Assembly (NCBI RefSeq): GCF_014192335.1
Contig: NZ_JACHXU010000015.1
Coordinates: 18,501-82,500, forward strand
Reading direction: 5' to 3'
DNA length: 64,000 bases
Source of the DNA: Aporhodopirellula rubra
GTDB taxonomy: Bacteria > Planctomycetota > Planctomycetia > Pirellulales > Pirellulaceae
Below are positions 2,175 to 63,807 of the stretch, in pieces; the stretch's first letter is position 1; every line of letters starts with the position of its first letter. A program made the position numbers and the translations under genes. The notes beneath the pieces are model-generated. The model was not told the origin of the DNA, made no database searches, and saw only the letters and a list, made by a program, of their open reading frames with translations.

Positions 2175-2633
2175 TCAAGCCGGTGGCCAACGGACGCACT
2201 GGGTTACGTTCGGACGAATGCGAACGAAGCCGTCGAGTTCAGGTGGAGTGGCGTAGTGATATCCCCACGCTTTGCCGATGCAATCATCCGAGGTGATTTC
2301 GGATTGATCGATTGAGTCAGACCGATACACCTCAACAACCACACGATCGTAGAGGTTCGCGGTACCGGGCTGGTGCGTGCCTTCGACGGCATCGATCACC
2401 TTCAGCACCTCGGCCAAGTACGCACGCTCAAATTGCCAAAGCTCACCCTGTACACGGTCGTCTCCCACGGTCAGGGCAGGGTAGTCGGAGCGGCCATAAA
2501 GAGCTCCGCAAACCCAACCCGGGGTAACGGCGAGCGGTGGATGCGGCCAGCACCTCTCGCGACACTGCCCTCGGCAGAGTGTTCCATAGACGAAGAAACT
2601 GTCGATCAAATTCGAGTCAGGCGAGGTTGGCAT
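2175..2633 (-). CDS. Gamma-glutamylcyclotransferase-like (AIG2/GGCT family) protein
   Basis: 152 residues. The family signature FVYGTL is at residues 14-19, and the probable catalytic glutamate lies at residue 84 in IDAVEG. The beta-barrel pattern (GALYGRSDYPAL, VQGELWQF) fits the GGCT/AIG2 fold. Family members open the glutamyl ring of gamma-glutamyl amino acids or related amines to release 5-oxoproline; the substrate here is unknown. The size is typical for bacterial single-domain members. No operon partner is evident: the gene upstream is on the opposite strand. One GGGCAGGG octamer (2474-2481) lies inside the gene on the opposite strand. Confidence 0.75.
   Translation of the reverse strand: MPTSPDSNLIDSFFVYGTLCRGQCRERCWPHPPLAVTPGWVCGALYGRSDYPALTVGDDRVQGELWQFERAYLAEVLKVIDAVEGTHQPGTANLYDRVVVEVYRSDSIDQSEITSDDCIGKAWGYHYATPPELDGFVRIRPNVTQCVRWPPA
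2474..2481 (+). repeat. KOPS-like octamer GGGCAGGG
   Basis: Single match to GGGNAGGG on the + strand, within the cyclotransferase gene. It is the outermost left copy seen in the window and points towards 42 kb. Context is TCAGGGCAGGGTAGTC, so a second overlapping copy is only partly formed. Confidence 0.55.
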
Positions 2634-2988
2634 GATAGTGAGAACAACTCAAAGAGCTGGTACCGATACAGGAGGACTAACATAGACTAGAAAAGCTCGA
2701 GTGGGTGACGTTCCCGAGCGACGGTTGGCGGCGGAAGGCTGCGAGAGGGAGGTCGCGACGTTCCAAAATTGCACCGTGGTGGATCGACCGAGACCGGTGA
2801 CGGCGATCCGGAACGAGGTCCAACAAACGGCTTATCACTCTTATCCGACTTCGTTGGGCGAGGATGTGGTACAAACGAGTATCAAATTGCGATGCGAATC
2901 CGTTTTACAAACTAAAATTGGATCGACGTACCCGCCTTCCGGTCCACCCCGTCGCACCGCTCCGCTGATCGCATTGAAGGAGTCGTTT

Positions 2989-5900
2989 GTGCCCCAAGCC
3001 TGCGAACGCCACATGAGATTCCGATTCCCGCTCGCCTGCGTCCCAAAATTCGTCGCGGTCGTTTTCGCGTCCGTATTGTTCTTGTTCGGCGTAGTATTGA
3101 TCGGCGGCCCGGTACGAGGTGCAGACCGCGTCGACTTCAATGCAGAAGTCCGCGTGCTGTTATCGGACAAATGTTTCCTCTGCCACGGCCCTGACGAAGG
3201 GACCCGCGAGGCCGGTTTGCGTTTGGACATCCGAGAGGACGCGATTGAATCTTCGGCGATCGTACCGGGAAGCCCCGACGACAGCGAGATCCTCGCGCGG
3301 ATCACGAGCGACGACCCGGACTTTGTCATGCCACCACCGTCGACGGGCAAAACGGTTTCGGCAGAGGAAGCCGAAACAATCCGGCGGTGGATTTCGCAAG
3401 ACGCACCCTACGACGAACACTGGGCTTTCGTCGCGCCGCGGCGACCTGAATTGCCGGACGTGCAAACGCGTAAATGGGTGCGAAACGAAATTGATCACTT
3501 CGTTTTGGCCGAATTGGAATCGCGTTCGCTAACACCCTCGCCACAGGCCGATCCCGAAACGCTCGCACGCCGTCTATCGCTCGATCTCGTCGGCCTGCCA
3601 CCAACGCTCGAACAACTCGACCGCCTCGTCAATGCAGAACCGCAAGCCGAAGCAATGGACGCTTTTGCTGGTGAACTGATGAAGTCGCCTCACTTTGGCG
3701 AGCGTTGGGCACGATGGTGGCTCGACGTGGCCCGGTATTCCGACTCGGCGGGCTACGAAAAAGACCTGCCACGTTCGGTTTGGTTCTATCGGGACTGGGT
3801 GATCGATGCGATGAATCGAGACATGCCGTATGACCAATTCATTGTCGAGCAGATTGCAGGCGACCTCCTCTCCGGTGCAACACAGAGCCATCGGGTTGCG
3901 ACCGGTTTTCTGCGGAACTCAATGACCAACGAAGAGGGCGGGGCGGATCCGGAGCAATTCCGCGTGGAAGGAATGTTTGATCGTGTTGACGCGATCGGCA
4001 AAGCAATTTTGGGCATCACGACTCAGTGCGCCCAATGCCATACGCATAAATACGATCCGATCAGTCACACCGAGTACTATCAAATCTTCGCAGCACTGAA
4101 TGATTTCCACGAAGGCTGCATCTCGGTCTACACACCGGAACAAGCCGACATTCGAGACGAGATTGCAGACGCGATCGCGGACATCGAAAATCGCCTGCGT
4201 GAGATTACCCCGGACTGGAAAGAAAAAGTGGCGGCGTGGGCGGCTAAGGTTGCGTCAGAGCAACCAACCTGGACGGTGATGAAACCGACGACGGTCCCAT
4301 TTGAGGGACAAAAGTTTGGGCTTCTCGAGGACGGCTCGATCATCAGTGAGAGTTACGCGCCGTCCAAGGCGAGCAACGATTTCTCGTTGACCACTCACGT
4401 CGGAACGATTACCGCAGTGCGACTCGATGCATTGATGCATCCGCAACTCCCTCGCGGCGGACCAGGGCGCAGCGTTGACGGAACGGGAGCGTTATCAGAG
4501 TTCAAACTCAAAATCCAACCGACCGCAAAAGACGCCAAAGCGATCGATATCAAATTCGTTCGAGCGGTTGCCGACGTCAATCCGCCACGGCGCGACCTGA
4601 AACCGCGATACCGTATTAAAGAGGCGTCCAAAGACGACCGGGTCGTCGGTCCGATCGAATACGCGATTGATGGTGACGAGAAAACCGCGTGGACAACCGA
4701 TCTCGCACCCGGGCGTCGTAATCAACCGCGGCATGCGATCTTTGTCCCGGAGTCGCCGATCGTGATTGACGGCGAGGCCACCTTGACTTTCACGATGGTG
4801 CAAAAGCACGGCGGCTGGAACAGCGATGACAACCAAAACTTCCTGATCGGACGATACCGATTCAGCATCACCGATTCGGACGTCATCCCTGAAACGACAG
4901 TCAACACGAGCATTTTGCCGCTACTAAAAATCCCGGCAGCACAACGATCGGCGGCGCAGTGGAAGCAATTGTTTTCACAGTGGCGATTGACTCAGGATTC
5001 ATTCGCCCCCCAGAACCGAGAGATTGAATCGTGGTGGAGTCGTTATCCAGAGACCGCGACGCAGTTAGTTGCAGTATCAAAAGTAACACCGCGGGAGACG
5101 TTTGTTCTCAACCGTGGCGACTTTCTCAGCCCGACCGAACGTGTTCGCGCCGACGCGCCCGCGTTTCTGCACCCGATGGAAACGTCCGACTCCCCCGACC
5201 GTTTGCGATTCGCTCGTTGGCTCGTATCGAAGGATTCTCCGACGACTCCGCGGGTGATCGTCAATCGCATCTGGCAGGCGTATTTCGGCCGCGGTTTGGT
5301 CTCCACACCGGAAGACTTTGGCTTTCAATCGGCGTCGCCTTCGCACCCCGAATTGTTAGACTTCCTCGCTCGCGAATTGATCGACAGTGGCTGGAGCTTG
5401 CAGCACATTCATCGACTCATCGTGGATTCGGCAACGTACCGTCAAAGTTCGATCGCCTCGGCGGGATCATGGCGAGAGGATCCCGAAAACGAGTGGATCT
5501 CGCGTGGGCCTCGACGGCGTGTGGAAGCGGAAATGGTTCGCGACATCGCGTTATCGGCTAGCGGTCTGTTGAACACGAAGATCGGCGGTCCGAGCATCTA
5601 TCCGCCCGCGCCGCGGTTCCTGTTCGAACCTCCGACCAGTTATGGGCCCAAGGTGTGGGCGTTGGACTCCGGCGAAACGCAATACCGCCGATCGCTCTAT
5701 GTGCATCAGTATCGCAGCATCCCGTATCCGCCACTGCAGGTGTTCGACGCACCAAAGGGAGACGCGTCCTGTGTTCGACGTGAATGCAGCAACACGCCGC
5801 TACAAGCACTCGTGATGCTCAACGAACCTCAATTCGTCGACACCGCTCGCGCCCTCGCATCCCGAACACTCCGAGAGGTTCACCCCACCGATCGGGCGGA

Positions 5901-16430: not shown

Positions 16431-18281
16431 ATGATATCGACTGACTTACTCAATCAAATCCACGCGGGGGATTGCGTGGCAGGAATGGCAGAAATTCCTG
16501 AGGGCACGGTCGACCTCGTTTTTGCAGATCCGCCGTTCAATATCGGTTACCAGTACGACGTCTATGACGACTCACTCGAGTCCGATGACTATTTGCGTTG
16601 GTCGGAGAATTGGATTCGTGGCGTCCACCGTGTGCTCAAACCCGACGGGGCGTTCTGGTTGGCGATTGGTGATGAATATGCGGCCGAACTGAAGGTCCTG
16701 TCGCAACGCGTCGGGTTCTCCTGCCGCAGTTGGGTGATTTGGTACTACACGTTCGGCGTGCATTGCAAATACAAATTCACACGCTCTCACGCTCATCTGT
16801 TCCATTTCGTCAAAGACCCCGACAACTTCACTTTCAACGCGGACGATCCGAACCTGCGAGTCCCGTCGGCGAGGCAGTTGGTCTACAACGACAAACGGGC
16901 CAACTCAAAAGGCCGCATGCCTGACGACACCTGGATCCTCCGCCCGCAAGACTTGCCTTCGGGATTCTCCGCCGACGAAGACGTGTGGTACTTCCCTCGC
17001 GTCGCGGGAACGTTCAAGGAACGTGCCGGTTTCCACGGTTGCCAGATGCCCGAACATTTACTGGGCCGGATCATCCGCTCGTCCAGCCACCAAGACGAAA
17101 TCGTTCTCGATCCATTCAGCGGCAGCGGCACGACGGCCGCAGTCGCCAAGAAACTAGGTCGAAAATACGTCACCTTCGACATGAGCGAAGAGTACGTTGA
17201 ACTCGGTAACGAGCGATTGCAACAGATCGCCGTTGGTGACCCCTTGGTCGGTTCGGCCGATCCGTTGCGAAGCGTTCCGTCGACCGCCGAAGGCAAACGG
17301 AAGAAAAAGAAAACTGCAGAGCAGCAAACAGCCGAAAAACGAAAGGCGACCCAAAGCCTTGGTCTGCAAATGTCACTGGGTTTTGGAAACTCGCACGACG
17401 AGGCAACCGAGGAGGTGGTCATTGATGCCTTCCGACAAACACACGCGGGCTTCTCCGTCGATCGCGTCTTGCTCGACCCGGTCATGAACGAACGTTTTGT
17501 CATCGCGTGCCGTGACGCGGGTTGCACGGTGAGCGAACACGAACTGCGAAAACACCTCGCTCAATTGCGATTCGTCGGCACATTGTCCGCCGAAGACCTG
17601 CAACCGAGCGAACCGACGATTGTGCCCGCTGCGACAATCGAACGTTATCGGTTCGCGAGTGAAATCGCATGGCGGCTCACCTCGGACCGATACCCGACCT
17701 GGACGCTCGACGATCTTCTCATCGATCCCGAAATCCTACGCCAGTTCGATACCGCTGCCGCTCAAGTCGCCCCGAATTGCGATCCACTGACCCTGCGTTG
17801 GGGAACGTTAAAACTGAGACAACTCGCTGCCGCAGTGATCGCACAAGCGGGCAAACGTCAAAACGGTGCGAAGGACAACGGGGCAGGGCAGGGCGGTAAG
17901 AAAAAGAAAGCCAAATCAAAAACGAAAGGCATGCTCGCCGACACCCCCGCCGTCGCACCCGAAGAGATCCAATGGCCCGAGCCGGAAGAATCATGCAGCG
18001 GCATTTACACGATCGAATCGAGCGAGGGATCGGTTTTGTATGTCGGCGAGTCGACCAACCTTCCCATGCGAATGCGTGATCACTTTGCACATTCCGAGTC
18101 TCGCGACTTTTGGTCGACGCTCGCCGGCGGAACCCCGCGAGTTCGCTTCCAAGAGATCGCCCCGATCCCCTCACAGAGCGTTCAGGAGCGTTTACAACCG
18201 TGGTACGGGGAACTGCTGCAGAGAGAAGACTCCGCATGCAATTGCGTCGATTTGTGGATACCCGGCGAATCACCCGAATAG
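16431..18281 (+). CDS. DNA methyltransferase (beta-class N4/N6) fused to C-terminal GIY-YIG nuclease domain
   Basis: 616 residues. The amino-methyltransferase motif IV DPPF is at residues 33-36 and comes before the AdoMet motif I DPFSGSGTT at 227-235, the beta-class order. DPPF is compatible with N6-adenine or N4-cytosine methylation. Residues 285-310 and 485-500 are lysine-rich linkers; between them lies an unrecognised, mostly helical region. The last 93 residues form a GIY-YIG domain: GIY at 524-526, LYVGES with Y537, then an arginine (NLPMRMRDHF), and a late glutamate with conserved asparagine (ELLQREDSACN). The single protein could therefore both modify and cut DNA. No separate restriction or specificity gene is adjacent. 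A KOPS-like tandem (17880-17897) lies in the second linker. Confidence 0.85.
   Translation: MISTDLLNQIHAGDCVAGMAEIPEGTVDLVFADPPFNIGYQYDVYDDSLESDDYLRWSENWIRGVHRVLKPDGAFWLAIGDEYAAELKVLSQRVGFSCRSWVIWYYTFGVHCKYKFTRSHAHLFHFVKDPDNFTFNADDPNLRVPSARQLVYNDKRANSKGRMPDDTWILRPQDLPSGFSADEDVWYFPRVAGTFKERAGFHGCQMPEHLLGRIIRSSSHQDEIVLDPFSGSGTTAAVAKKLGRKYVTFDMSEEYVELGNERLQQIAVGDPLVGSADPLRSVPSTAEGKRKKKKTAEQQTAEKRKATQSLGLQMSLGFGNSHDEATEEVVIDAFRQTHAGFSVDRVLLDPVMNERFVIACRDAGCTVSEHELRKHLAQLRFVGTLSAEDLQPSEPTIVPAATIERYRFASEIAWRLTSDRYPTWTLDDLLIDPEILRQFDTAAAQVAPNCDPLTLRWGTLKLRQLAAAVIAQAGKRQNGAKDNGAGQGGKKKKAKSKTKGMLADTPAVAPEEIQWPEPEESCSGIYTIESSEGSVLYVGESTNLPMRMRDHFAHSESRDFWSTLAGGTPRVRFQEIAPIPSQSVQERLQPWYGELLQREDSACNCVDLWIPGESPE
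17880..17897 (+). repeat. Tandem KOPS-like element (two overlapping GGGCAGGG)
   Basis: Matches 18 bases of the window consensus; octamers at 17881-17888 and 17886-17893. It is coding: it supplies GAGQGG in the lysine-rich linker of the methyltransferase-nuclease fusion. It reads towards 42 kb. Confidence 0.75.
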
Positions 18282-25478: not shown

Positions 25479-26460
25479 GACAGGTCGTAGAATAGGGACT
25501 GAGCTGATGGACTTGGTCGAGCATCGTACTGACGGTGAATTGTTGGCTATACATCGACAACGCCCATGTCATGAATTCGAGCTTGGCATCACGTTTCATC
25601 TTCATGCCTGGAAAATACGACATATCAGCGTCGTCCTCGCTCCCCAGAAAATCAGGCGGATGCAACAAGAGCGAGGGCGTTGTGCCGAAAAGACGACATG
25701 CCGTCAACGCCGCCCGAAAATAGGTCTTCGCGACCGTGACACTGTACCCCGCAACAAAAGTGAGATAGCTAAAGTGAATCGGAGTCCGCAACACGGGCAA
25801 GACTGTGACGGGAACCTCCCAAATACTGCCTAAGCCAGAATCGTCGCTTGCGGAGGCATCGGGGCAGGGCAGGGCACGCCGATGAGGCCAATTCGGACTC
25901 CGCATCGCCGCAAAACCTCCGTAGAGTTTCTTGGCTTTCTCTCGCTGCTCGCCTTTCAACTTCGTCCGTGCAAGAAACACCGCTCGCGCGATCGGCGCCA
26001 TCGACGTGGGGAAGATCGATGCGTCGTACTGATACCCAAGCCTACCGAGCACACGAAGAACCTCATCGGGACAACTGAACCCCGGCCCTCGAAATCCCAC
26101 TGGCGTTTGTTTGGTCGAAGCGAAAATGGCGTCATGCGTGACACGAATCTCCGTCTCGATTTCTTCGTCACTCATCGTATGCATCCACGGCAGATGATTG
26201 AGCGAATGATTGGCCGCCTCCCAGTTCGGGAGCGATGCAAACTTAGCGATCGATTCAACATCCTCGTCGCGTTGTAAATCGCGTCCGACCAGGAAAACGG
26301 TCAACGGCAGCCCAAGAGGACCGAGAACGTCAACGATGTTGGAAATCGCCAACGGAAAATAGCTGTCCGAGGACTCCCAATCTTCACGACCGGCGGCACG
26401 AAGGTAGGCCCATTTGTTATCGAGATCGAGCGACAAACTCGCGGGAGGTCGATCACTCAT
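25471..26460 (-). CDS. Polysaccharide deacetylase (NodB homology)
   Basis: 329 residues. The NodB metal-site motif begins with LSLDLDNKW (residues 9-17), and the probable second metal motif is ANHSLNH (HSxxH type) around residue 82. The RGPGFSCPDEVL segment supplies the conserved arginine block. No signal peptide is seen, so a cytoplasmic or membrane-surface role on lipid-linked sugars is likelier than a role on secreted polymer. It overlaps both neighbours (4 bases with the GT4 gene, 8 with the WecG gene). A KOPS-like tandem lies antisense within it. Confidence 0.87.
   Translation of the reverse strand: MSDRPPASLSLDLDNKWAYLRAAGREDWESSDSYFPLAISNIVDVLGPLGLPLTVFLVGRDLQRDEDVESIAKFASLPNWEAANHSLNHLPWMHTMSDEEIETEIRVTHDAIFASTKQTPVGFRGPGFSCPDEVLRVLGRLGYQYDASIFPTSMAPIARAVFLARTKLKGEQREKAKKLYGGFAAMRSPNWPHRRALPCPDASASDDSGLGSIWEVPVTVLPVLRTPIHFSYLTFVAGYSVTVAKTYFRAALTACRLFGTTPSLLLHPPDFLGSEDDADMSYFPGMKMKRDAKLEFMTWALSMYSQQFTVSTMLDQVHQLSPYSTTCHA
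25859..25875 (+). repeat. Tandem KOPS-like element
   Basis: TCGGGGCAGGGCAGGGC on the + strand, octamers at 25862-25869 and 25867-25874, inside the - strand deacetylase gene. The 3' GGT of the consensus is lost (ACG instead). Confidence 0.7.
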
Positions 26461-39105: not shown

Positions 39106-40081
39106 GAATCAACCTTACAGTTCAAAGTCAAAAAATATGTATCGGACAGCGTGTATCAGACAAGGCGCGACCGCCTTTCGGACCGGAAACTCTGGCAACT
39201 TCAGCGACCGCAAAACAAACAGTCGATTGTCAACAAACAGCACCGCCAACCGAAATATCGAACCCTTCGAATTTTCAGCATACCGTGTTCCGAAATCCAT
39301 CACAGCCGGCATAGTAATTGGGCCGCAAATAGCACTCAACGTTTTGTGACTCGATAACGAAATAGCGACACTTCCAGCCTCAAAACGCTGCGTGTGAAAA
39401 TTGAGCGTGAACGATTGTCGGCACAACTTTCATGCTGCTGTGAAAACGGACGACGAGTCACCTACCACACCATCACCACAAATTCACGGGGACAGCGACA
39501 AATTCGCGGGGCAGGGCAGGGCGGTTCCATAAATACGCCGACAAATCTCCAACTGCTCATCGCTAAGAAAGCAAGTCGCCAGATACTCCTATCAATTCAG
39601 CATCTCTGGGCGGGCACGCTGGGAAACCTCCCTTCAACTCGCTAACACCATTGCCTTGCAAAAAAATACTGATAATACCGCTGCGATGCGCGAGACAACC
39701 GCTCGACAAGCGGCCGATTGCGATACACGCGGCGAATGTCCACAACGAGGCTAGCAACGCTTTCTTTTAAAAACGCGCTCCCATCCATTTGGCTACCCAC
39801 GACTTCAGGCAAAGCCCCCGCATCCGATGCGACGCATTAGCGATCGCTCGAAAAGATTGCGAAATCGCCGCGTCTGGAATCAAACTTCCGACCAATAATC
39901 GATAGTGTTTCGTCACTGACCGCATCCATGCCATCGGCCCACAATCTGATATCCGAATTGGGACCATTAAACTGCCACTGCCTTTCCGCACGAGCAACAT
40001 TGCTCTGCACTAGAGCTGCTTCGATCACCATTCGCATTCGCTGATTACTAGGCTTCGTGCCAGCGTCTGCCGAGACCGAGC
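39106..40081. other. 976-base gap with little or no coding, adjacent to the terminus
   Basis: The longest gene-free stretch in the window, clearly less GC-rich than its surroundings. It contains a full KOPS-like tandem (39506-39525). The open frame on the - strand at 39837-40037 (66 residues) reads like a possible protein remnant but has no recognisable motif or start signal, and others overlap it in other frames. I see no RNA gene or repeat other than the KOPS element. Confidence 0.5.
39506..39525 (+). repeat. Tandem KOPS-like element, near-full consensus
   Basis: GCGGGGCAGGGCAGGGCGGT in non-coding DNA, octamers at 39509-39516 and 39514-39521, pointing towards 42 kb, 2.7 kb from the dif candidate. 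Confidence 0.8.
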
Positions 40082-40975
40082 TTAAAAAGCGCCAGCATCG
40101 CTAGACCAGGGCAGAGCAGGGTGGGCTGGCGGAACCGCAACACGCTGCGAATCCGACGGCGCCGCTTCCCAATAGTTGTTCGGAGCATAGCCAGGAGCCT
40201 GCTGCGTTGGGGCAGGGTAGGGCGGCACGGAATAGGAACCGCCTGGTTGGGGATAAACGGGGGCTTGCGATTCAGGAAACAGCGACGGCCCCGGAATCAT
40301 ATATCGCTCACGATCCAGTCGCACACGCTGACGGAGTCGGTCAAGAATCCCGTGATCACCCCAAGCGAGATAACACAGCAAAACGAGCTTGCCCCACACG
40401 GACACATTCGCCCACCAATCCTTCCCGAAAAATTTCAATGCCGTTCCGAATGATTTTTTGACGCGCATTCGTCCACGGCTGAAATCCAAGCTCCAAATTT
40501 CATCCAAAATCAAATGAGTCAGAAAACCGATTAACACCGCGAGCGATTTGTAAACACGAATCGCCTCGCTCGGACACGGCATGATTAAATAGGCGCCCAA
40601 TCCAGCGACCAGCGCCGCCGGGATACTATGCCACATCCCGCGATGCACCGTGTAACGCCGAAAGAATTCGACAGCGACAAAACGGATTCCGACGTAAACC
40701 AACATCGCCGCCAACGCCATCGATTCATGCGAGAGCCCCATGTCGCGAAACCGATCGATCATCAACATCGGCGCGATCGCAGCCATGAAGAGACTCGTCT
40801 CTCGCAGCGGAACGCCCGAATCTGAATCGAGATCCGGAAGCATCCCCGCAACACTGCACAAGCCACCCGCCAGCAACCCACTTTCGAGTGACATTCCCTG
40901 AGTGGCCACGCCCCAATAACCGTAGGCAACACCCACCATCGTGCTCGTCGAGATATGGGTTTTGAAGCCAGCCAA
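40082..40975 (-). CDS. YdjM-like membrane-bound metal-dependent hydrolase family protein
   Basis: About 297 residues if it starts at TTG 40975; the frame is open to a GTG at 41164, but the extra 63 residues are not conserved-looking and include DNA shaped by a KOPS element. The family N-terminus (KTHISTSTMVGVAYGY) and a run of about five membrane segments are present. Conserved acidic and histidine patterns of the YdjM (LexA-regulated inner membrane) family occur as LPDLDSDSGVP, HRGMWHSIPAAL and HLILDEIWS. Enzymatic activity in this family is presumed, not shown. A proline/glutamine-rich tail (about 70 residues) contains a further KOPS element. It is divergent from the CvpA gene. Confidence 0.78.
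   Translation of the reverse strand: MAGFKTHISTSTMVGVAYGYWGVATQGMSLESGLLAGGLCSVAGMLPDLDSDSGVPLRETSLFMAAIAPMLMIDRFRDMGLSHESMALAAMLVYVGIRFVAVEFFRRYTVHRGMWHSIPAALVAGLGAYLIMPCPSEAIRVYKSLAVLIGFLTHLILDEIWSLDFSRGRMRVKKSFGTALKFFGKDWWANVSVWGKLVLLCYLAWGDHGILDRLRQRVRLDRERYMIPGPSLFPESQAPVYPQPGGSYSVPPYPAPTQQAPGYAPNNYWEAAPSDSQRVAVPPAHPALPWSSDAGAF
40107..40124 (+). repeat. Degenerate KOPS-like element
   Basis: CCAGGGCAGAGCAGGGTG, aligned with the consensus but with no complete GGGNAGGG octamer. Same orientation as the other left-hand copies. Confidence 0.4.
40207..40225 (+). repeat. Tandem KOPS-like element
   Basis: TTGGGGCAGGGTAGGGCGG, octamers GGGCAGGG at 40210-40217 and GGGTAGGG at 40215-40222. It lies inside the C-terminal tail of the YdjM-like gene and points towards 42 kb. 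Confidence 0.75.
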
Positions 40976-41043: not shown

Positions 41044-41061
41044 GGAGCAGGGAAGGGCGGT
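41044..41061 (+). repeat. KOPS-like element, last copy on the left side
   Basis: GGAGCAGGGAAGGGCGGT, with GGGAAGGG at 41050-41057. It is the last + strand copy before the dif candidate, 1.15 kb away. Confidence 0.7.
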
Positions 41062-41975: not shown

Positions 41976-42364
41976 CGCCCGCCACCAACCGACCGAAACT
42001 CAACAGGGCAGCAGCAACACCGCTCACCACTTCGGCACACGGCCAAGCTCAATCGACACTCGACGGACCGAAACAAGATCGCCACTGAGCCCACGCCAAA
42101 CCGTACCGAGAAGCAACTCCCACAACGACACGACAGCGAGTCGCAGACAGGGAAGCGAGATCCACGAAACGCCTAAAACCATCGTTTTAGACGGATCGAA
42201 TACAACATAAGAGGCATTATCGGACGTTGCGGGGCGGTAAGAATCCGCTTAGAAACCTGCTCCCATGGCCCCGCGACCGCTCGCTCGAAGAGCCATCTCG
42301 AGCGAGCGTTGGCTCGCAAGCCGCTCGAGATCACGACGCGATTGAGCCATCGCCTGAGCCTCCG
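41976..42364. other. Intergenic gap carrying the dif candidate
   Basis: 389 bases between convergent cvpA and accA. Besides the dif-like 28-mer at 42200-42227 it holds a short GC-rich piece (GCGGGGCGGTAAG, 42229-42241) that matches the 3' end of the KOPS-like consensus. No gene or terminator is evident. Confidence 0.6.
42200..42227 (-). other. dif: Candidate dif site for XerC/XerD recombination
   Basis: Read on the - strand: an 11-base arm ACGTCCGATAA (42227-42217), a 6-base centre TGCCTC (42216-42211) and an 11-base arm TTATGTTGTAT (42210-42200). The second arm matches 9 of 11 positions of the E. coli XerD arm TTATGTTAAAT, and the first keeps the ATAA next to the centre as in the XerC arm. 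The 11-6-11 layout is that of dif. It lies in non-coding DNA between the two blocks of oppositely oriented KOPS-like octamers, exactly where dif is expected. The assignment combines sequence and position; I cannot test it by genome-wide skew. Confidence 0.7.
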
Positions 42365-43333: not shown

Positions 43334-43336
43334 CGT

Positions 43337-44302: not shown

Positions 44303-44612
44303 TAGGCAGCTACGCGGGAGAGAAGTCGGAAAACGCGGATTAGGCAGAATTTGCCGCTGCATGATAGCTCAACTGCCCCCGCTAACGAAAGGGAAGAGAC
44401 CACGCCCCCCACACCACCGGTGAAAACAGTCGCGAACCTAGGCTCCCAAGTCGCCTCTGTCCTTGTCGATCGCCTCCGTATTTCGCAGACGGCCCTCGCC
44501 GCACTCGCGTTTTATCCTCGTGGCCATGAATCGTTAGACTGGATTTCGTCCACCAAAATCAATTTTTGACCACCCTACCCTGCCCCGACTTTTGCCTCCT
44601 GCGGCACGCCAA
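44303..44612. other. Intergenic gap between kinase and sirtuin genes
   Basis: 310 bases between divergent genes, holding a KOPS-like element at 44569-44588. Otherwise I see nothing specific; short open frames have no features of genes. Confidence 0.5.
44569..44588 (-). repeat. Tandem KOPS-like element, first copy right of the terminus
   Basis: Reads TCGGGGCAGGGTAGGGTGGT on the - strand; octamers at 44573-44580 (GGGTAGGG) and 44578-44585 (GGGCAGGG). It lies in the divergent gap 25 bases before the sirtuin start and is the first copy of reversed orientation. Confidence 0.8.
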
Positions 44613-45389: not shown

Positions 45390-45408
45390 ACCGCCCTGCC
45401 CTCCCCCG
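45390..45408 (-). repeat. Tandem KOPS-like element
   Basis: ACCGCCCTGCCCTCCCCCG on the + strand; octamers (as - strand) at 45394-45401 and 45399-45406. It lies in the gap between the convergent deacylase and sulfatase genes and points towards 42 kb. Confidence 0.75.
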
Positions 45409-45437: not shown

Positions 45438-46904
45438 CTAGTTTTTCCTTACCAGCCGTTCCTGCAGCACTGCATTGAGCCGACTCACGACATCGGGATT
45501 CTCTTTCGCCACGTTCGACAATTCCAATGGGTCGACCCGGTGGTCGTATAGCTCCGCAAAACCATCTTTGTGGACAACCAATCGGTACGCGTCGGTGCGA
45601 ATCGTATTTGCCTTGCCATAAGAAATCGCTACGTGTCCGTCCCGACTTGGGTTTCGCAAAATCTCACCCAGAGAAACGCCACTCGTGGCCTCCGGGGCCG
45701 ATTGAGACACCGCCAGCTCACAGAGAGTCGGAAATAGATCAATCGACTCCACCACCGCGTTGGTAGAGATCCCTTCCTCTACCTGCCCGGGAGCACGAAT
45801 GATGAGAGGCGATCGCAGGTCGTCTTCAAACAAAGCGTGCTTGCCCCAAATCGCGTGCTCACCCAAGTGCCAACCGTGATCCCCCCACAACACGACAATC
45901 GTCGACTCACTCAACCCGAGCCGATCGAGCTCGTCGAGAACACAACCAACGTTGCGATCAGCGTAGGTCACGCACGCGGCATAGTGTTTACGAACGGCGA
46001 TAGCGAATTCACTATCTTGGTTCGGATCCTTGCCCCATCGGTGGTATCTCATGAATTCACCCGATCGATGCCACGTCGTTCTCCCATCTGGTTTTGCGAC
46101 GTTGCTGATCAGGGGCAACACCGCGTCACGATAGGGTTCCATATCTCGCTCCGGCGCACCGAATGGTAAATGCGGACGAATAAAACCGACGGCGAGAAAG
46201 AACGGTTTACTCTCGGCGTCGGATGCCAAAATGTTGAGTTGTTCCAACGAAGTCTCGGCGACGAGATCATCCGGATAACGGTCACTCTCATTGGGCGCAG
46301 ACTGAAACACATCCATTTCAGTCGGTTCAACGCGGATCTCACCATTGGCCAGCCCGTGCATCGCCCCGCGTGGATGCTGCCAAGGTCCCGTTGGCATCAA
46401 ATGCCGATCCCAATCACCAGGCATTTCAATGACTTGGTCATCATCCCAATCTTTCCCACCACGACCACCGGGATGATGCGAAACCTTGCCTATAGACACC
46501 GTCGTGTACCCACGGTCACGAAACCAACGCGGCATGCTTGACGCGACGGACTCAGGCGTCTTTTCGATGCGTTCAGCCCGCTTGAACAGCGCATCATTAC
46601 CGGCGTCACCGTACTGCCCGGTCAACATCGCATAACGGGATGCACCGCACGTAGGTGCCTGAACATAGTGCCTGTCGAATCGACAGCCCTGCCCCGCTAA
46701 CCGATCAATGTTCGGAGACTGTATGTAGTCCACCCCGTAGCAATTCAATTCCGGACGCAAATCATCCACGCAAATCAACAGCACGTTCCGACGGTCCTCG
46801 GACACACCGTTTGATGACCAACCGAGGCAGAGCACCGCGAGCATCAAGGTTCCGTGGAGCACACAAACGAAACGAAAACGGTCATTCCTAGAACGCATCT
46901 TCAC
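45438..46904 (-). CDS. Sulfatase (iduronate-2-sulfatase-like), exported
   Basis: 488 residues. Signal peptide at residues 1-35 ([17 protein letters not shown]). The sulfatase N-terminal metal motif is [17 protein letters not shown] (41-57). The catalytic cysteine, converted to formylglycine in active enzymes, is C86 in [17 protein letters not shown]; the pattern is C-G-A-S-R rather than the common C-x-P-S-R. Further metal ligands occur in [20 protein letters not shown]. The family removes sulfate esters from polysaccharides and is hugely expanded in Rhodopirellula. No maturase gene is in the window. A KOPS-like octamer lies antisense at 46687-46694. Confidence 0.92.
46687..46694 (-). repeat. 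KOPS-like octamer GGGCAGGG (- strand)
   Basis: CCCTGCCC on the + strand, followed by CGCT. Single copy within the sulfatase gene; orientation agrees with the other right-hand copies. Confidence 0.6.
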
Positions 46905-47039: not shown

Positions 47040-48884
47040 TCACCGGTCGGAGTCGTCTCGTGGCGTTCTCGACAACAACGGCTCAACCCAAACACCCCAA
47101 TCACCGCCCCCGCCATTGCCACCATCGGTGACCATCAACGACAGGGTGCTCACATCGCTGACGTCCAAATCAAACGTACCGCCCTGCCCTGCCCCGACAC
47201 CACGTGAACTCCATATCATTTGGCCATCGCCAACAATTTGAAAGTCGACTTTCCCAGAGTGCCCGTTCTGCATGCCAAATTTTCCTGACAAGCGTTTCCA
47301 TTGTCGATCGATTCGGTAGACGTGTGACGATGGCGCGTGAGCGTAGATTCCCTCTGCATAATATTGCCCACCGATCGACAATAGCCTCGATGGCTCTGGC
47401 ACCGAATCATAGGTGGGACTCAACCAACCGACACTCTCGGAGATCGGTATCAGTTTTGATAACCCGATCGATGAGACCCCCGAATCAAGATCATCAACAC
47501 TCACTGAGGTCGGCTTCTCGACGTCGCGAAAACGATCGAGGACTTGGCGTCCGATCTTCATCAGCGATTCATCGCCAGATGCCGCCGTCGCCAAGTCAAC
47601 CTCCGCCTCTTCAAGCTTCGATCTCCGTATGGAATCAACCATCGCCGCCAACTCCAACTCAACCCGAATCGCTGAAAGATCGGGCTGACCACTCCGCTCG
47701 ACACGGTAAAAAAAGGAGCGCACACTTGTCGCTCCATTCACATGACAAACGGTCAACCGCAACTCCCCGTCACCAACACGCAAGTTCCCCGATTGCATCG
47801 CGAATCTCCCACGGTCATCGGGAACCGCCGTGGCGGTGGTCGCATCATAGTCGCCTCCACCGCGCGGATCGAAATAGGCCACCACGCCATGAACCGGGAC
47901 ATCCGCTTGCACCATGCCGTGGACCCGAATTTGGCTCTTCTCACCGGCGACAATACGAAGCTTCGGCCATCGCGTTGCCGGACGCTTTTTCACGTCTCCG
48001 GTCATTCGCCGATTAAACACCGGATGGGCAGCCAAACGCAGGGCATGTGCCTGAGTTAAAAACGTCCCTCGCCCTTCGCCACGCAACTCCTGCGCGTACG
48101 TTCGGTTCCCCGCCCCCATTAACGCGGTTCCTCGAACCGATTCGTCTCTCCGCTGGCGACAATGGGGCAGCGACAACGCATGACCGAGTTCGTGAATCAC
48201 ACCGCCAATGAAGATGCTGTTATGGCGACCGATCGTGATATCGCCATACTCACCGTCGCGTATCGGAGTGAGATCTCGAAACCGAAGCGGGTCGAGAATT
48301 TCTGAATCACATTGCCACGCCGTTCCTGATAAATGAGACCCGCCACCATAGTAAGGACTGTGATGTGAGATCGTGCCACCAACGGGATCGTAGTCCATCA
48401 GATTGCAGAACAGCAAAATCACCGATTCGTTCGGCGCAATTCCTCTTTCTCGTAGCACCGGCACGACTTCGTCACGGATCCGACCACCATCACTTTTTCC
48501 ATAATCACCGCCCTGCCCTGCCCCGACGACGTCGATGACCTCTACCTCGTCACGATCGTTTCGCAGCACGGCCATCGCTCGTTCACGAAACCCATGTCGA
48601 CGGAGTTCGCGTTCGTAGAATCCAGCGGTCTCTTCGACGATGCGACGGATCCGCGCCACATGGTTAGTTGCCGGTTGCCGATCCGCCGGAGTGAAATAAA
48701 CAGCAACAACCTGCCCCGGTGAGTCAATCGCACCACTTTCTGTGGAATCCGCAATCCTCGCCTCTGACTGCTGAATCCCATCGGCATCGGCAAACGCTGC
48801 CAACGGCAGAACCGCAGCCTCGGCAGAAAAAGCTCTCTGGCCGATTACGCAAAATAGGAACAGGAAACAATACCATCGCGTCAT
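47040..48884 (-). CDS. Secreted metzincin-like protease with C-terminal NPCBM domain
   Basis: 614 residues from ATG 48884, which has GGAG 7 bases upstream and begins directly at a signal peptide (RWYCFLFLFCVIG..AFSA). The zinc site is HELGHALSLPH (231-241): the HExxHxxxxxH spacing of metzincins, with serine where the usual glycine is. A Met-turn candidate follows in GTALMGAGNR. The central region is a beta-rich module of unknown type. From about residue 480 an NPCBM carbohydrate-binding module appears (LLSIGGQYYAEGIYAHAPSSHVYR). Two KOPS elements lie in the gene and each encodes GAGQGG (47178-47197 and 48507-48526). Confidence 0.8.
   Translation of the reverse strand: MTRWYCFLFLFCVIGQRAFSAEAAVLPLAAFADADGIQQSEARIADSTESGAIDSPGQVVAVYFTPADRQPATNHVARIRRIVEETAGFYERELRRHGFRERAMAVLRNDRDEVEVIDVVGAGQGGDYGKSDGGRIRDEVVPVLRERGIAPNESVILLFCNLMDYDPVGGTISHHSPYYGGGSHLSGTAWQCDSEILDPLRFRDLTPIRDGEYGDITIGRHNSIFIGGVIHELGHALSLPHCRQRRDESVRGTALMGAGNRTYAQELRGEGRGTFLTQAHALRLAAHPVFNRRMTGDVKKRPATRWPKLRIVAGEKSQIRVHGMVQADVPVHGVVAYFDPRGGGDYDATTATAVPDDRGRFAMQSGNLRVGDGELRLTVCHVNGATSVRSFFYRVERSGQPDLSAIRVELELAAMVDSIRRSKLEEAEVDLATAASGDESLMKIGRQVLDRFRDVEKPTSVSVDDLDSGVSSIGLSKLIPISESVGWLSPTYDSVPEPSRLLSIGGQYYAEGIYAHAPSSHVYRIDRQWKRLSGKFGMQNGHSGKVDFQIVGDGQMIWSSRGVGAGQGGTFDLDVSDVSTLSLMVTDGGNGGGGDWGVWVEPLLSRTPRDDSDR
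47178..47197 (-). repeat. Tandem KOPS-like element, full consensus
   Basis: Exact consensus on the - strand, octamers at 47182-47189 and 47187-47194. Coding for GVGAGQGGTF in the NPCBM part of the protease. Confidence 0.8.
48507..48526 (-). repeat. Tandem KOPS-like element, full consensus
   Basis: Exact consensus on the - strand, octamers at 48511-48518 and 48516-48523. Coding for VVGAGQGGDY in the same protease, in the same reading phase as the copy at 47178. Confidence 0.8.
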
Positions 48885-52210: not shown

Positions 52211-53110
52211 ATGCCCGCAACACGGCTCGATGGCAAGAAAATCGCACTCGAAATCCGAGCAGAAGTCGCTAAGGCGGTGGAGCAGTTTGTCGCCGAGGGG
52301 AACGCACCGCCAAAACTGGCCGCCGTCCTTGTAGGAGAAGACCCAGCCAGCCAGGTGTATGTTCGCAATAAAGAGCGGGCGTGCGAAAAAACCGGCATCG
52401 CCAGCCAACTCGATCGGCTGCCCGCGTCGACGTCACCGACCGAACTTCTAGAACGAATCGACCAACTCAACCGTGATCCCTCGGTCAACGGGATCCTCGT
52501 CCAGCTTCCCCTCCCCCAACCCACCGGCGACGGCCCGGCCCTGGATGAGCGGGCGGTTCTCGACGCCGTCGACCCGATCAAGGATGTCGATGCCTTTTCG
52601 CCAATCAACGTCGGATTGTTAATGCAGGGTCGGCCTCGTTTCCTGCCATGCACCCCACACGGCATCGTGCAAATGCTTCATCGGTGCAATATCGCAACCG
52701 CCGCGAAACACGTCGTCGTGGTCGGACGCAGCGAAATCGTTGGCAAACCGATGGCCATGATGCTGGCCCAAAAAGACGGTTCCTGCGGGCCCGAAACGGC
52801 CAACGCCACCGTCACGATCGCTCACAGCCGGACCAAGAACCTGAAAGAGATCTGTCTTTCGGCCGATATTCTGATCGCCGCAGTCGGTCGCCCCGAAATG
52901 ATCCGCGGCGACATGATCCAGCCCGGCGCCGTCGTTGTTGACGTCGGAATCAATCGCGTCGAAGATCGCTTGGTCGGCGACGTCGCATTTGACGAAGCGG
53001 CAGAAGTCGCGTCGGCGATCACGCCGGTTCCCGGTGGCGTTGGTCCACTGACGATTGCCATGTTACTGCACAACACCCTGTTGGCAGCAAAACTGCAAGC
53101 CGCGAAATAA
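52211..53110 (+). CDS. folD: Bifunctional methylenetetrahydrofolate dehydrogenase / methenyl cyclohydrolase
   Basis: 299 residues from ATG 52211 (MPATRLDGKKIALEI); a TTG two codons earlier is also in frame. The catalytic lysine region is SQVYVRNKERACEKTGI, the GILVQLPLPQ block and the NADP-binding VVVGRSEIVGKPMAMML are complete, and PGGVGPLTIAMLLHNTL closes the protein. It interconverts 5,10-methylene- and 10-formyl-tetrahydrofolate, providing the cofactor for ThyA. It is divergent from cysI. A KOPS-like octamer at 52509-52516 lies within it. Confidence 0.96.
   Translation: MPATRLDGKKIALEIRAEVAKAVEQFVAEGNAPPKLAAVLVGEDPASQVYVRNKERACEKTGIASQLDRLPASTSPTELLERIDQLNRDPSVNGILVQLPLPQPTGDGPALDERAVLDAVDPIKDVDAFSPINVGLLMQGRPRFLPCTPHGIVQMLHRCNIATAAKHVVVVGRSEIVGKPMAMMLAQKDGSCGPETANATVTIAHSRTKNLKEICLSADILIAAVGRPEMIRGDMIQPGAVVVDVGINRVEDRLVGDVAFDEAAEVASAITPVPGGVGPLTIAMLLHNTLLAAKLQAAK
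52509..52516 (-). repeat. KOPS-like octamer GGGGAGGG (- strand)
   Basis: CCCTCCCC on the + strand, in the LPLPQP codons of folD. It is a single copy in the right-hand orientation and may be partly dictated by the coding sequence. Confidence 0.45.
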
Positions 53111-56470: not shown

Positions 56471-56550
56471 AAATCTGATTCGGAAACCGAGCCCGCGATC
56501 ACGTCTGAAAGGACGCTCGCTACCTCGCCCCACCATCTTCCCCACCGCTC

Positions 56551-56600: not shown

Positions 56601-56614
56601 GGGAAATCAGGGCG

Positions 56615-59600: not shown

Positions 59601-62530
59601 CCGATCCCGACAGCTCACCGAACAACTCGATCGCGACCGAGGATGACCAAGACGACGCATCAATCGTAGCAGAACAAATCAATTTGTCTCTGACCAAAGG
59701 CGTCAGTGATCCCACACCACGCGTGGGCGAAACATACAGCTATACCATCGTCGTCAGTAACTCCGGTCCCGATACCGCTACTAACATCGTCGTCGGCGAT
59801 ACGCTTCCTTCGTCGATCACTCTCGTCGACAATGATCCCGAAACCGGTTCGTTTGTCACCTCGACTCGACGATGGACGATCCCATCGCTTGCGGCCGGAT
59901 CTTCCACGACACTCCGTCTCGACGCACGCATCTCATCGATCGCAAACTTGCCCGACGGTGACCCGATCAACACGGGACTCGTCAACACTGCAGAAATCCT
60001 CTCCGTCGACCAAGTGGATGCCAACAGCACACCCGGCAACAACGTGGAAGACGAAGACGATCAAGACTCCGCGACGGTACGCATCCCGATCGCAGACATC
60101 TCCGTCGAAAAGAACACACTCACCCCTGCCCCAAACATCGGTGACATCGCTCGATTCGAAATCATCGTTCGAAACGCGGGCCCCGATCCCGCAACCAATC
60201 TCGTCGTTCGAGACCTATTGCCTAACGGTTTAACCTACCGATCCGATAGCCAAAGTGATGCCGGCAATACCTATGTTTCCTCCAACGGTTTGTGGACCAT
60301 TCCATCACTCGGCGTTGGCCAATCCACAACCCTACAAATCAACGCCGATGTCACCGCATCGGGGACGTTCACAAACTCCGCCGAATTAATCGCTGCGGAC
60401 CAGGACGACCCTGATTCGACACCCGACAACGTGGTTCCGAACGAGGACGATCAATCGAGCGACTCGCTCACCACACCCGTTATCGACCTTGAACTCACCA
60501 AATCATCTTCACCCGAACGCCCTCCCGTTGGCAGTGAAATCACCTTCACTCTCCGACTCGACAACACGGGTCCAGATGACGCTTCCGGCATTCAAGTTCG
60601 TGACACTCTACCAAGCGGATTTCAGTTCACCTCATCAATTCCCTCGGCTACCTTCAATGCGTCGACCGGAATCTGGAACGTTGAAACCCTCGCCGCAGGT
60701 GCATCGACCGAACTCGAAATTCGCGGGATCGCAAACACGACTGAAACATTCACCAACCAAGCGGAAGTCATTTTCGCGGACCAATTCGACCGCGATAGCA
60801 CACCCGACAATGGGTTCCAAAACAACGAAGACGACATCGCATCCGTCACCGTAACGCCCGCCAACGCCGACTTGTCGCTCGAAAAAACGATCAACGACGA
60901 CACGCCCAATGTTGGCGAAGACGTGACTTTCACACTAACGCTTCGCAACGATGGTTCCGACACCGCCGAAGAGATCGAGGTACGCGACTCACTGCCCGCC
61001 GGACTCACGAATGTCCGTTCTTCAACAACCGCTGGCACATTCACCACGTCTGACAACATCTGGCGAGTTCCCGAACTCCGCCCCAATTCCTCGGCGACGC
61101 TCACCCTCACCGCGACCGTCGATTTCGAATCGAACAATAGTACGCAGCCAATCACTCGTACCAACTATGCCGAAATCACTGCGTCCTCCCAATTCGATCC
61201 CGACAGCACACCGAACAACAACAGTAATGATGAAGACGACGACGCTTCGGTTGATTTTACCCCGCAACTGATCGACCTCGCGTTGACCAAGACCATCGAC
61301 GAAAGCCGTCCCAATGTGGGCGACACAGTGGAATACCTACTGACCGCAACCAATGAAGGCCCGAGCGATGCAACCGGCGTCATCGTGGAAGACGAACTGC
61401 CCAGCGGTCTCAGCTTTGTCTCCGCCTCCTCATCGGCTGGCGGCGCATACAATCCAACGTCAGGACGATGGACCATTCCTTTGATCCCCGCGGGTGAATC
61501 GAGGGAACTGACCATCCGCGCAACCGTGTCTCCGAACACCAATAACATCGACACGATTCTCACCGAGGGCATTACCAACATCGCCGAAGTGATCGCCGCG
61601 GACCAACCGGACCGCGACAGTACTCCGAACAATGGGGAAGGCGAAGACGACTATCAATCTGTCGCTCTCACTATCGCGCGAGCCAATTTGTCGCTCTCAA
61701 AAACAGTCGATATCGCCAACCCTGATCAAGGCGACCTCGTTACCTTCACGGTGACTGCGAACAACGCGGGCCCTGACGCTGCGTCGAACATCGTCATCCA
61801 AGACATCTTGCCATCCGGTTTAATTGACATCGAAGTCAGCACGGCGGATGGGGAATACACTTCCTCGACGGGACGCTGGACCATCGATCAACTCGGAATC
61901 AACGACTTTTCCGTCTTACAAATTCGCGCTCGCGTCTCAACCGCTGACATCGTAACCAACACGGCGGAAATCATTTCGGTCGATCAATTCGATCCCAACA
62001 GTGTTCCTGGTAACGGGAATCTAGACGAAGACGACATCGCCTCGGTCGTTGTTTCTCCCAAGGTTGTCGACGTCAGCGTGTCGGCGACCGTAACCCCGAC
62101 GCAGGCGAGTGTGGGAGACACGATTCAACTCACAGTCACCGCACAAAACGGGCAAGTCACAACTGCCGCCTCGATCGCTGCTCTGGCCGCCACCACCGAT
62201 CGCGTTATCTCAGATGCGTCCGGAGTCGTTGTCGGTATCGAAATTCCCGAGGGTTTGACACTGCTCAGCGCCGATCCCGCAGGTGAGTTCAACCCACAAA
62301 CCGGGCAATGGCAGATCGGAAACCTTGCCGCCGGCACCGCTCGACAACTCACGCTCAACTTCCGAGTCGACGTCCAAAGTCTCAAAACGTTTTTGATCGA
62401 AGTCGTCGAAACGGAAGAGTTCGATATCGACAGCACCGCGGGGAATAACGTTCCAACCGAAGATGATCAAACGAGCGTCTCGGTGACTCCACCACGAATT
62501 CTCTCGAAGCGTTTATTCCTCGCCCGTTGA
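56615..62530 (+). CDS. Giant secreted surface protein with SdrD-B-like and twelve DUF11-type repeats
   Basis: 1971 residues. The N-terminus is strongly basic (residues 5-35) and carries YEALESRRLLA (34-44), the LE-R-LL motif at the start of many planctomycete extracellular proteins. Residues 49-125 resemble an SdrD B-like (collagen-binding protein type) domain (LSGRVYDDFTGDGYSAGEEVAG). After an unassigned part come twelve DUF11-type units of 128-137 residues from residue 368 to about 1960. Each has ATNVVVTDTLPAG-type and WTIP-type motifs and ends in an acidic junction of the ADQFD-D-DS-P-N type. The C-terminus ends in ILSKRLFLAR, with no sortase or PEP-CTERM signal seen. It is probably an adhesin or sheath component beside flagellin. 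Confidence 0.88.
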   Translation: MTEQPRRKKASNRNKKLIGRRGKDARSVRRRPSYEALESRRLLAVATDLANLSGRVYDDFTGDGYSAGEEVAGASLTLYRDDGDDQFEPGAGDAEIATVTTDSDGRYVFERLSAGDYFVLQPAQTASGNTLLRSVSPLVTISSEQVSGRLIQTIDGFDGNFQTVEDETQNDGPVTSTASAPEAIGGSRDLLVEKTSDIGSVSLIVNDPASPDLLQVSSDAFGGGRRAVIWDGAGDNPEIVDDDGLGSVDLTSGGDAAGLRLVIGADLPAGTAVIRLYTNDGVDGSLTRISSAELDIPPLTTQPTSVEFLPFSEFSTATGASGPADLTDIGAIEFEVIAGPNYDALADLIGTIGPNIIPVADFDNFESIDLNLSKELITANANVDDLVSFRLSLTNEGDDTATNVVVTDTLPAGISYRSDQPDAGTAFESSTGRWTIPTLAPGVTVNVILTGLLTTSTTQTNTAEVTAADQFDIDSSPNNADASEDDQASADVTAAQINLSLDKAVSNARPNVGDAITFTLTLTNSGINDATNIVVQDTLPPGFSITANDPDSGSFSVSNSRWTIPQLAAGLSTSLTLTSTVNTAGDFTNVAEVISVDQFDINSTPGNNVLSEDDQDEINFQTPIADLSLDKTIVGQVASIGDNVTFAITVNNAGPDPATNVSIREVLPAGLTYVSDTTSLGEYNPSTGIWTLPDLPVTTAGSAPVTLTLIAEVNNAGTKTNVAEIIASDQSDPDSTPGNGSGGAAGQEDDIDSVLITPVTIDLELEKSVTSTRPTPGETFTYNVTVRNTSNDDASGVFVEDAIPTGLIFQSATDGEIYSPSTGVWNVGNVPAGTSRTLAINVILDQSRTDLLDAITNTAQITAADQFDTDSTPGNNIANEDDQASVAITPARADVSLTKTTSSSKINVGEEAAFTITVRNDGPDPSGRLIVADPIPNNAAFVSATEPSGTSYDAVNRQWIIDGLQNNQSVTFSLVLRSTASGTINNVAQITSAALPDPDSSPNNSIATEDDQDDASIVAEQINLSLTKGVSDPTPRVGETYSYTIVVSNSGPDTATNIVVGDTLPSSITLVDNDPETGSFVTSTRRWTIPSLAAGSSTTLRLDARISSIANLPDGDPINTGLVNTAEILSVDQVDANSTPGNNVEDEDDQDSATVRIPIADISVEKNTLTPAPNIGDIARFEIIVRNAGPDPATNLVVRDLLPNGLTYRSDSQSDAGNTYVSSNGLWTIPSLGVGQSTTLQINADVTASGTFTNSAELIAADQDDPDSTPDNVVPNEDDQSSDSLTTPVIDLELTKSSSPERPPVGSEITFTLRLDNTGPDDASGIQVRDTLPSGFQFTSSIPSATFNASTGIWNVETLAAGASTELEIRGIANTTETFTNQAEVIFADQFDRDSTPDNGFQNNEDDIASVTVTPANADLSLEKTINDDTPNVGEDVTFTLTLRNDGSDTAEEIEVRDSLPAGLTNVRSSTTAGTFTTSDNIWRVPELRPNSSATLTLTATVDFESNNSTQPITRTNYAEITASSQFDPDSTPNNNSNDEDDDASVDFTPQLIDLALTKTIDESRPNVGDTVEYLLTATNEGPSDATGVIVEDELPSGLSFVSASSSAGGAYNPTSGRWTIPLIPAGESRELTIRATVSPNTNNIDTILTEGITNIAEVIAADQPDRDSTPNNGEGEDDYQSVALTIARANLSLSKTVDIANPDQGDLVTFTVTANNAGPDAASNIVIQDILPSGLIDIEVSTADGEYTSSTGRWTIDQLGINDFSVLQIRARVSTADIVTNTAEIISVDQFDPNSVPGNGNLDEDDIASVVVSPKVVDVSVSATVTPTQASVGDTIQLTVTAQNGQVTTAASIAALAATTDRVISDASGVVVGIEIPEGLTLLSADPAGEFNPQTGQWQIGNLAAGTARQLTLNFRVDVQSLKTFLIEVVETEEFDIDSTAGNNVPTEDDQTSVSVTPPRILSKRLFLAR
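57718..62470 (+). repeat. Twelve tandem DUF11-coding units
   Basis: Unit starts (IDLNLSK-like) are near 57718, 58104, 58489, 58894, 59290, 59677, 60091, 60481, 60868, 61270, 61680 and 62070, i.e. 385-415 bases apart. Units are diverged at DNA level, so they are old rather than recently amplified. The last unit is the most divergent. Confidence 0.75.
60124..60131 (-). repeat. KOPS-like octamer GGGCAGGG (- strand)
   Basis: CCCTGCCC on the + strand in the codons TPAPN of the seventh DUF11 unit. Single copy in the right-hand orientation. Confidence 0.5.
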
Positions 62531-63597: not shown

Positions 63598-63665
63598 GAC
63601 TCATTCGCACACGGCGATGAGACGACCGCGACCCTAACCGCGGCGAACCATGCACAACGCACCTG

Positions 63666-63697
63666 ACCCTGGACATGAATTCATGTCCAGGGTTTTT
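63666..63697 (+). terminator. Rho-independent terminator after sodA
   Basis: A perfect 28-base palindrome (63666-63693; each half reads ACCCTGGACATGAA or its complement) runs directly into five T (63693-63697). This is the clearest terminator in the window. Without an A-run it is directed to the + strand. Confidence 0.9.
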
Positions 63698-63782
63698 CTT
63701 TGCATCCACAGCACCAACAACCCAATCGCTCCGAATCCAAACCAACTCGGGAACACGATTGAACTACCGAACCAAGTTTTAA

Positions 63783-63807
63783 ACCGCCCTGCCCTTCCCT
63801 GCCCCGA
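63783..63807 (-). repeat. Triple KOPS-like element
   Basis: Three overlapping octamers on the - strand: 63787-63794, 63792-63799 (GGGAAGGG) and 63797-63804. The flanks match the consensus at both ends, so this copy has one extra unit. Non-coding. Confidence 0.8.

Follow-up and report, generated by a model that had tools for sequence, protein, structure and literature searches.

The systems closest to the one described here are the KOPS (FtsK-orienting polar sequences) of Escherichia coli and Vibrio cholerae, octamers of the form GGGNAGGG that point toward the recombination site dif, and the canonical dif/XerCD pair itself. FtsK of both species reads GGGCAGGG, and triple overlapping copies of this octamer have been used in laboratory substrates (PMC2533119; this and the papers cited below are each cited for part of their text). 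A related class, the AIMS (architecture imparting sequences), comprises strand-biased octamers that climb toward the terminus (PMC5993296). For planctomycetes, no report of KOPS or dif was found in the open-access literature, apart from an earlier survey in which dif prediction failed for its one planctomycete (PMC3025954), while ftsK has been reported as the sole essential gene of the dcw (division and cell wall) cluster in Planctopirus limnophila, which is without ftsZ and ftsA (PMC12283558). Here we describe a 64-kb stretch of Aporhodopirellula rubra, a planctomycete of the Rhodopirellula group (contig NZ_JACHXU010000015.1, positions 18,501 to 82,500; hereafter the window, numbered from its first nucleotide), in which KOPS-like octamers on the two strands converge on a dif-like site at 42200..42227. 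The polarity switch at this site is repeated in relatives, the octamers occur in tandem form and are concentrated near dif, and FtsK-gamma and XerD are encoded together with another Xer protein.

From the sequence, we estimate a probability of roughly 85% that the dif-like site and the convergent predicted KOPS serve FtsK loading and the resolution of chromosome dimers by XerC/XerD. The FtsK motor would load on the G-rich sites through its gamma domain and would move toward dif from both sides, where XerC and XerD would resolve dimers by a putative recombination at the dif-like site. Overlapping octamers would probably be stronger loading sites than one octamer. The window likely holds a dimer-resolution (segregation) terminus.

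The window contains 27 GGGNAGGG octamers in 16 clusters, 13 on the (+) strand, from 2474 to 41050, and 14 on the (-) strand, from 44573 to 63797. The last (+) octamer ends at 41057, the first (-) octamer starts at 44573, and none of the 27 has the wrong polarity. An earlier, sequence-only reading of the window had listed 13 (+) and 14 (-) octamers at 16 loci, and its coordinates and strands are reproduced exactly; the recount also agrees that no octamer on either side has the wrong polarity, and the tightening of the spacing toward 39–49 kb that it described is real. In 100 dinucleotide shuffles of the window, the mean count was 5.29 and the maximum 12. Genome-wide there are 548 copies of GGGNAGGG (294/254) in 8,548,319 bases on 75 contigs, with 328/387 for the backwards control, so that about 4.1 would be expected per 64 kb; the window is enriched about 6.5-fold over the genome's own rate.

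This enrichment is mainly due to GGGCAGGG, which often occurs as two copies offset by 5 bp and embedded in an 18-bp consensus, GGGGCAGGGCAGGGCGGT. The sequence-only reading was right that the octamers are arranged as KOPS would be, but it overlooked that the effective unit is longer than GGGNAGGG; as a unit, plain GGGNAGGG was rejected as too loose, since C predominates at its N and most of the signal resides in the doubled form. The positions below come from the octamer count combined with the 18-mer search, or from the octamer count alone where so marked. On the (+) strand, a KOPS-like octamer GGGCAGGG at 2474..2481 (octamer count) is followed by doubled sites at 17880..17897 (exact 18-mer, within the open reading frame (ORF) 16431–18281), 25861..25878 (three mismatches to the 18-mer) and 31838..31855 (exact), a KOPS-like site at 36883..36900 (three mismatches), doubled sites at 39508..39525 (exact) and 40209..40226 (two mismatches), and the final site ahead of dif at 41044..41061 (two mismatches, octamer GGGAAGGG). 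Past dif, on the (-) strand, the first site, at 44569..44586, is doubled with two mismatches, and the next, at 45390..45407, is doubled with one. There follow a GGGCAGGG octamer at 46687..46694 (octamer count), doubled exact 18-mers at 47178..47195 and 48507..48524, a GGGGAGGG octamer at 52509..52516 and a KOPS-like GGGCAGGG octamer at 60124..60131 (both octamer count), and a tripled site at 63783..63805, with octamers at 63787, 63792 and 63797.

The exact 18-mer has six copies in the A. rubra genome, all on the window's contig (C15). With up to three mismatches there are 50 matches (backwards control, 8), 40 of which lie on C15, C6, C32 and C42. In a profile of 153 clusters from five genomes, information extends from about -6 to +11 around the octamer, and 78 of 87 close GGGCAGGG pairs in five regions are spaced 5 bp apart. 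Three other accounts of the octamers were tried and rejected. A mobile repeat was discarded because conservation ends beyond about 18 bp in the 153 clusters, and gene-driven placement because toward-dif octamers are found intergenic, sense and antisense alike; their intergenic share, by simple ORF calling, was 0.49, 0.17, 0.48 and 0.19 against an expected 0.09–0.12. Chance or composition as their source was rejected by the shuffles, the genome rate and the order-2 expectation given below. Inheritance of individual sites was considered too and rejected, the close pair G002/G003 (below) apart: between the window's contig and a relative, G003 (handles of this kind denote genomes), one of 31 positions aligns and none keeps the motif, and between G018 and G003 two of 76 align and again none keeps it.

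The dif-like site, ACGTCCGATAATGCCTCTTATGTTGTAT, lies at 42200..42227 on the (-) strand, with the XerC arm first and the XerD arm last. Its architecture is that of canonical dif, about 28 bp with XerC and XerD arms about a short centre (CGATAAT ... TTATGTT), present in one copy, placed at the motif switch and accompanied by XerD and a second Xer protein. It sits in a 389-bp gap with a gene encoding a Colicin_V (CvpA-type) domain on one side and accA on the other. At up to three mismatches, all 13 genus genomes, as well as G018, G023 and G025, contain exactly one copy; the search was positive in 16 of 60 genomes, always in single copy, and the backwards control gave none. A looser pattern had matches in 59 of the 60 relatives, with extra weak matches in some. 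Among named genomes, the site occurs in 21 records, including Rhodopirellula europaea, R. solitaria, R. sallentina, R. maiorica, Neorhodopirellula pilleata, Aporhodopirellula aestuarii and several Rubripirellula. The flanks are also conserved. Across 26 family/order loci (30 minus two doubtful or repeated and two with short flanks), the search pattern is preceded by AACGTC and followed by CGGTT, whose bases are either invariant or 77–96% conserved, and a second block, on the XerD side, spans positions +34 to +47 counted from the start of the core, with nine columns above the background maximum of 0.60 bits. In the window, this block corresponds to 42170..42189 (-), an imperfect inverted repeat, TAAAACGATGGTTTTA. 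Canonical dif has no such extra block 34–47 bp beyond the core; the block is present across families of the order and looks like a possible accessory site. On the other flank, TGCGGGGCGGT (42228..42238, +) adjoins the XerC arm and is conserved in the 16 loci of the genus group, a few with one change.

The same polarity is seen in relatives. On the dif-bearing contigs of 15 genomes, all 92 of the 18-mers (at most one mismatch) among the matches listed point to dif, a count that leaves out 38 matches on other contigs, 11 of G002 and 6 of G018; the switch interval is 3.6 to 45.4 kb in the 13 genomes having both strands. The doubled motif, taken as the 13-mer GGGCAGGGCAGGG, points to dif in 83 of 83 cases in five single-contig genomes. 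Of these, 68 lie in the tenth of the half chromosome closest to dif, and the rare 13-mers distant from dif in these genomes still keep the polarity. For dif-directed strand bias, GGGCAGGG is the top octamer in all five regions compared (40 to 400 kb), with 208 copies toward dif and 8 away when pooled, and in the same regions 13-mers number 51 to 0. Within 200 kb of dif in G003, 60 GGGCAGGG octamers point toward it and two away, the latter lying about 1.0–1.1 kb from dif. A GGGCAGGG pointing away from dif is present at a similar place, on the XerD side at about 1.03–1.25 kb, at 6 of 16 dif loci (L004–L007, L009 and L015). For E. coli, tolerance of a single wrong-way site near dif has been inferred (PMC2680272).

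The motif switch also located a dif-like site in eight of eight trials outside the genus. In G031 the switch (8,450,727 to 8,459,715) was known first; the strict pattern gave no dif there, and a looser pattern then gave 8,454,294. For seven further trials, contigs outside the genus were taken from among the matches listed, each with a (+) to (-) switch of no more than 25 kb; six belong to three other families, and the seventh to a different genus within the same family. In all seven, the interval contained a dif-like site, with scores of 24, 20, 20, 20, 21, 17 and 22 of 25, compared with maxima of 14 to 17 from five shuffles each; the weakest, at 17, was that of G177. Left out of the trials were G295:C1 (convergent, with an interval of 782 kb), G262:C51 and G030:C10. 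In the phylum sample, the 13-mer occurs in 103 of 294 genomes, many of them with single matches that are no commoner than in the backwards control. In these eight trials, the switch in the doubled motif placed dif-like sites from DNA sequence alone.

The genes expected of such a system are encoded. The FtsK_gamma domain (PF09397) was detected in 56 of 60 genomes, that of A. rubra included. XerD scored above the cut-off in 11 of 11 genomes, each of which has a second Xer match of 320–333 bits. Among the genes that the sequence-only reading had proposed looking for (ftsK with its gamma domain, xerC and xerD), FtsK-gamma and XerD are accounted for, and the second Xer protein is presumably XerC. 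The resemblance to the KOPS of E. coli and V. cholerae extends to the octamer core, polarity toward dif, a switch at dif, density rising toward it, and the presence of FtsK-gamma and XerD. The planctomycete sites differ in being often doubled or tripled naturally, with a 5-bp step and an 18-bp consensus, where elsewhere such arrays are known from laboratory substrates (PMC2680272, PMC2533119), in their concentration near dif and their independence of GC skew, and in facing an FtsK in which two of three reading residues are changed. KOPS and dif are of a known kind; the natural tandem, near-dif and skew-independent variant in planctomycetes appears to be new within the literature searched. It supplies a dif site and a likely guide code for a phylum whose one surveyed genome had defied dif prediction (PMC3025954).

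Several observations weigh against a KOPS/dif system of this kind. The recognition helix of FtsK-gamma, GYGRAAR[LM][IV]D[YF]M at all but one of the 30 loci where it was read, was compared with the solved FtsK-gamma sequences 2j5p and 2ve8, which we take to be those of E. coli and P. aeruginosa: R1300 is kept, N1296 is changed to G and E1303 to D. In E. coli and V. cholerae, KOPS were no longer read when those reading residues were changed jointly (PMC2533119). Because two of the three differ, it is no more than likely, judged from the helix and the motif, that FtsK-gamma of the Rhodopirellula group reads the octamer, for which other residues may serve. Close to dif (within 1.5 kb), the polarity breaks down, with 4 octamers toward and 8 away at the 16 genus-group loci, and 18 toward and 11 away at 28 family/order loci. 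Far from it, at least 0.8 Mb away in four 100-kb samples of G003, with sides assigned by the antipode of dif, one GGGCAGGG points toward dif and five away; the arm-wide spread with dif-directed bias of E. coli, a trait of KOPS there and not strictly a defining one, is not shared by the single octamer in G003. Among the matches listed, 13-mers on two other-genus contigs, G262:C51 and G030:C10, are in divergent order. The genomes of the genus are not independent, because close members share sites: between G002 and G003, 36 of 41 clusters align and 24 of the 41 keep the motif. Finally, in all four genomes examined in 20-kb steps (the window's own contig, G003, G018 and G002), every step on either side of dif has the same sign of GC skew.

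Over roughly the first 22 kb of the window, GC skew stays near zero, with small values of either sign; from there it is negative through 42 kb to the end, and over the whole 236-kb contig it is negative in 11 of 11 20-kb steps. The sequence-only reading took the window to span the replication terminus; in the GC-skew sense this is not supported, with one sign across dif in all four genomes and no sign change at 42 kb, where that reading had expected one. Unexpectedly, the motif keeps its polarity against a GC skew that has the same sign on both sides of dif. In G003 (dif at 4.44 Mb), skew changes from negative to positive at 5.42–5.60 Mb and from positive to negative at 1.77–1.95 Mb, placing the nearest flip about 0.98–1.16 Mb from dif; apart from two negative samples within the positive half, there are two skew halves, with dif inside one. 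In G018 (dif at 0.60 Mb), the changes lie at 6.92 to 0.36 Mb, through the record start, and at 3.67–4.00 Mb, the nearest being about 0.24–0.93 Mb from dif, which again sits within one of two clean halves. From these positions, dif in both genomes is nearest the switch conventionally read as the origin. Skew in G031 was thinly sampled (eight samples of 5 kb), and the 40 kb around dif is near zero on both sides; in G042 (ten samples of 4 kb) it passes from minus to plus at 4.8–5.6 Mb and has weak values near dif (2.44 Mb), in keeping with the usual pattern. According to published work, dif and the skew switch lie 13 kb apart on average (PMC6199493), and dif need not coincide with the end of replication (PMC6199493, PMC13342612). 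Pseudomonas aeruginosa PAO1-UW, where segregation ends at dif and replication elsewhere, is a precedent, but there a GC-skew switch is still present no more than 15 kb from dif (PMC6199493), which is not so in the genomes described here; canonical dif likewise differs in having a skew switch nearby. A search of the open-access literature on skew gave nothing on point.

Gene positions give a mixed picture of replication. The rplB gene was found in nine of nine genomes and points to dif in six of the eight scored (away in G042 and G059; G041 was left out, its dif being ambiguous, and G059 was scored by hand with a rounded length). The 16S gene was found in four of eight genomes and points to dif in all four (in G059, by hand, from almost the antipode), as does the 23S gene in G003. 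In G003, the 23S/5S rRNA genes and rplB flank dif at 0.17 and 0.24 Mb, each oriented toward dif. The prevailing orientation of the ribosomal genes, toward dif, would be consistent with forks meeting at dif; the skew does not favour dif as a fork end. No signal toward dif was seen for tRNA genes (4 of 7), nor a dif-directed bias of gene strands, for which hand sums gave a weak excess of 657 of 1231 on the C-rich strand. For DnaA, two strong matches were found in each of six genomes, none above the family cut-off, and a long dnaA lies opposite dif in G003 and G002 and about a third of the chromosome from dif in G018, G023 and G031. The short and long DnaA paralogues lie at different places, and a dnaB-like ORF follows the long one in four loci; in G031 the ORFs after the short dnaA are, as read by eye, presumably dnaN and gyrB.

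Because the motif holds its polarity without a flip in skew, two features that as a rule go together are set apart in these chromosomes, and the question of why skew and dif switch together becomes directly testable. One arrangement, to which we give slightly less than even odds, is that in the Rhodopirellula family the segregation axis (dif and tandem KOPS) is rotated by about 0.3 to 1 Mb from the GC-skew axis, with dif nearest the usual origin switch, and with either forks ending far from dif or a leading strand that is C-rich. If true, this would break the rule that skew flips at dif, and the tandem KOPS would be a code close to dif whose polarity is maintained against composition. The comparison with AIMS is affected as well: the planctomycete motif likewise gains in abundance and bias toward dif, but AIMS are defined on the leading strand (PMC5993296), a placement that is not settled for this motif.

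The skew also bears on whether the polarity could arise, near a skew switch, simply from base composition or the orientation of genes. Octamers rich in G, as this motif is, often track the leading strand, but in the four genomes with one sign of skew on both sides of dif a compositional origin is refuted. On the arm where the pointing strand is G-poor, an order-2 model predicts 0.5, 1.1, 0.8 and 0.9 copies of GGGCAGGG, and 16, 27, 26 and 23 are seen, an excess of about 25- to 32-fold; other octamers show no such bias, and with the sites spread over intergenic, sense and antisense positions, the probability of this explanation is close to negligible.

Two further explanations keep the sites as real polar signals and change the protein that uses them. 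Polar replication-fork barriers, Ter-like sites bound by some unknown protein so that forks enter the dif region and cannot leave, would give the same geometry of two opposed groups, dense near dif. The core, however, is identical to the octamer that FtsK of E. coli and V. cholerae reads (PMC2533119), and GC skew carries no sign of forks ending at dif. Ter sites of E. coli are few and fixed, whereas many of the sites described here are at fresh positions, and we regard fork barriers as very unlikely. A segregation signal read by a protein other than FtsK, such as an unknown DNA-binding factor or an SMC-related loader, would account for a consensus that reaches beyond the octamer, from -6 to +11, and for the two differing residues of FtsK-gamma. 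It is also very unlikely, given a core identical to known KOPS, FtsK-gamma in nearly all of the genomes searched, and a switch exactly around a XerCD-type site. The motif is also directional where matS is palindromic, and concentrated near dif where Chi-type sites are spread over the chromosome.

Two genes near the octamers have features of their own. ORF 16431–18281, which contains an exact copy of the 18-mer, matches a DNA methylase (N6_N4_Mtase) and has a weak GIY-YIG match. Further along the window, 56615–62530 encodes a protein of 1971 residues with 12 DUF11 stretches, specified by repeats of about 390 bp, and adjoins a flagellin gene (54431–56470).

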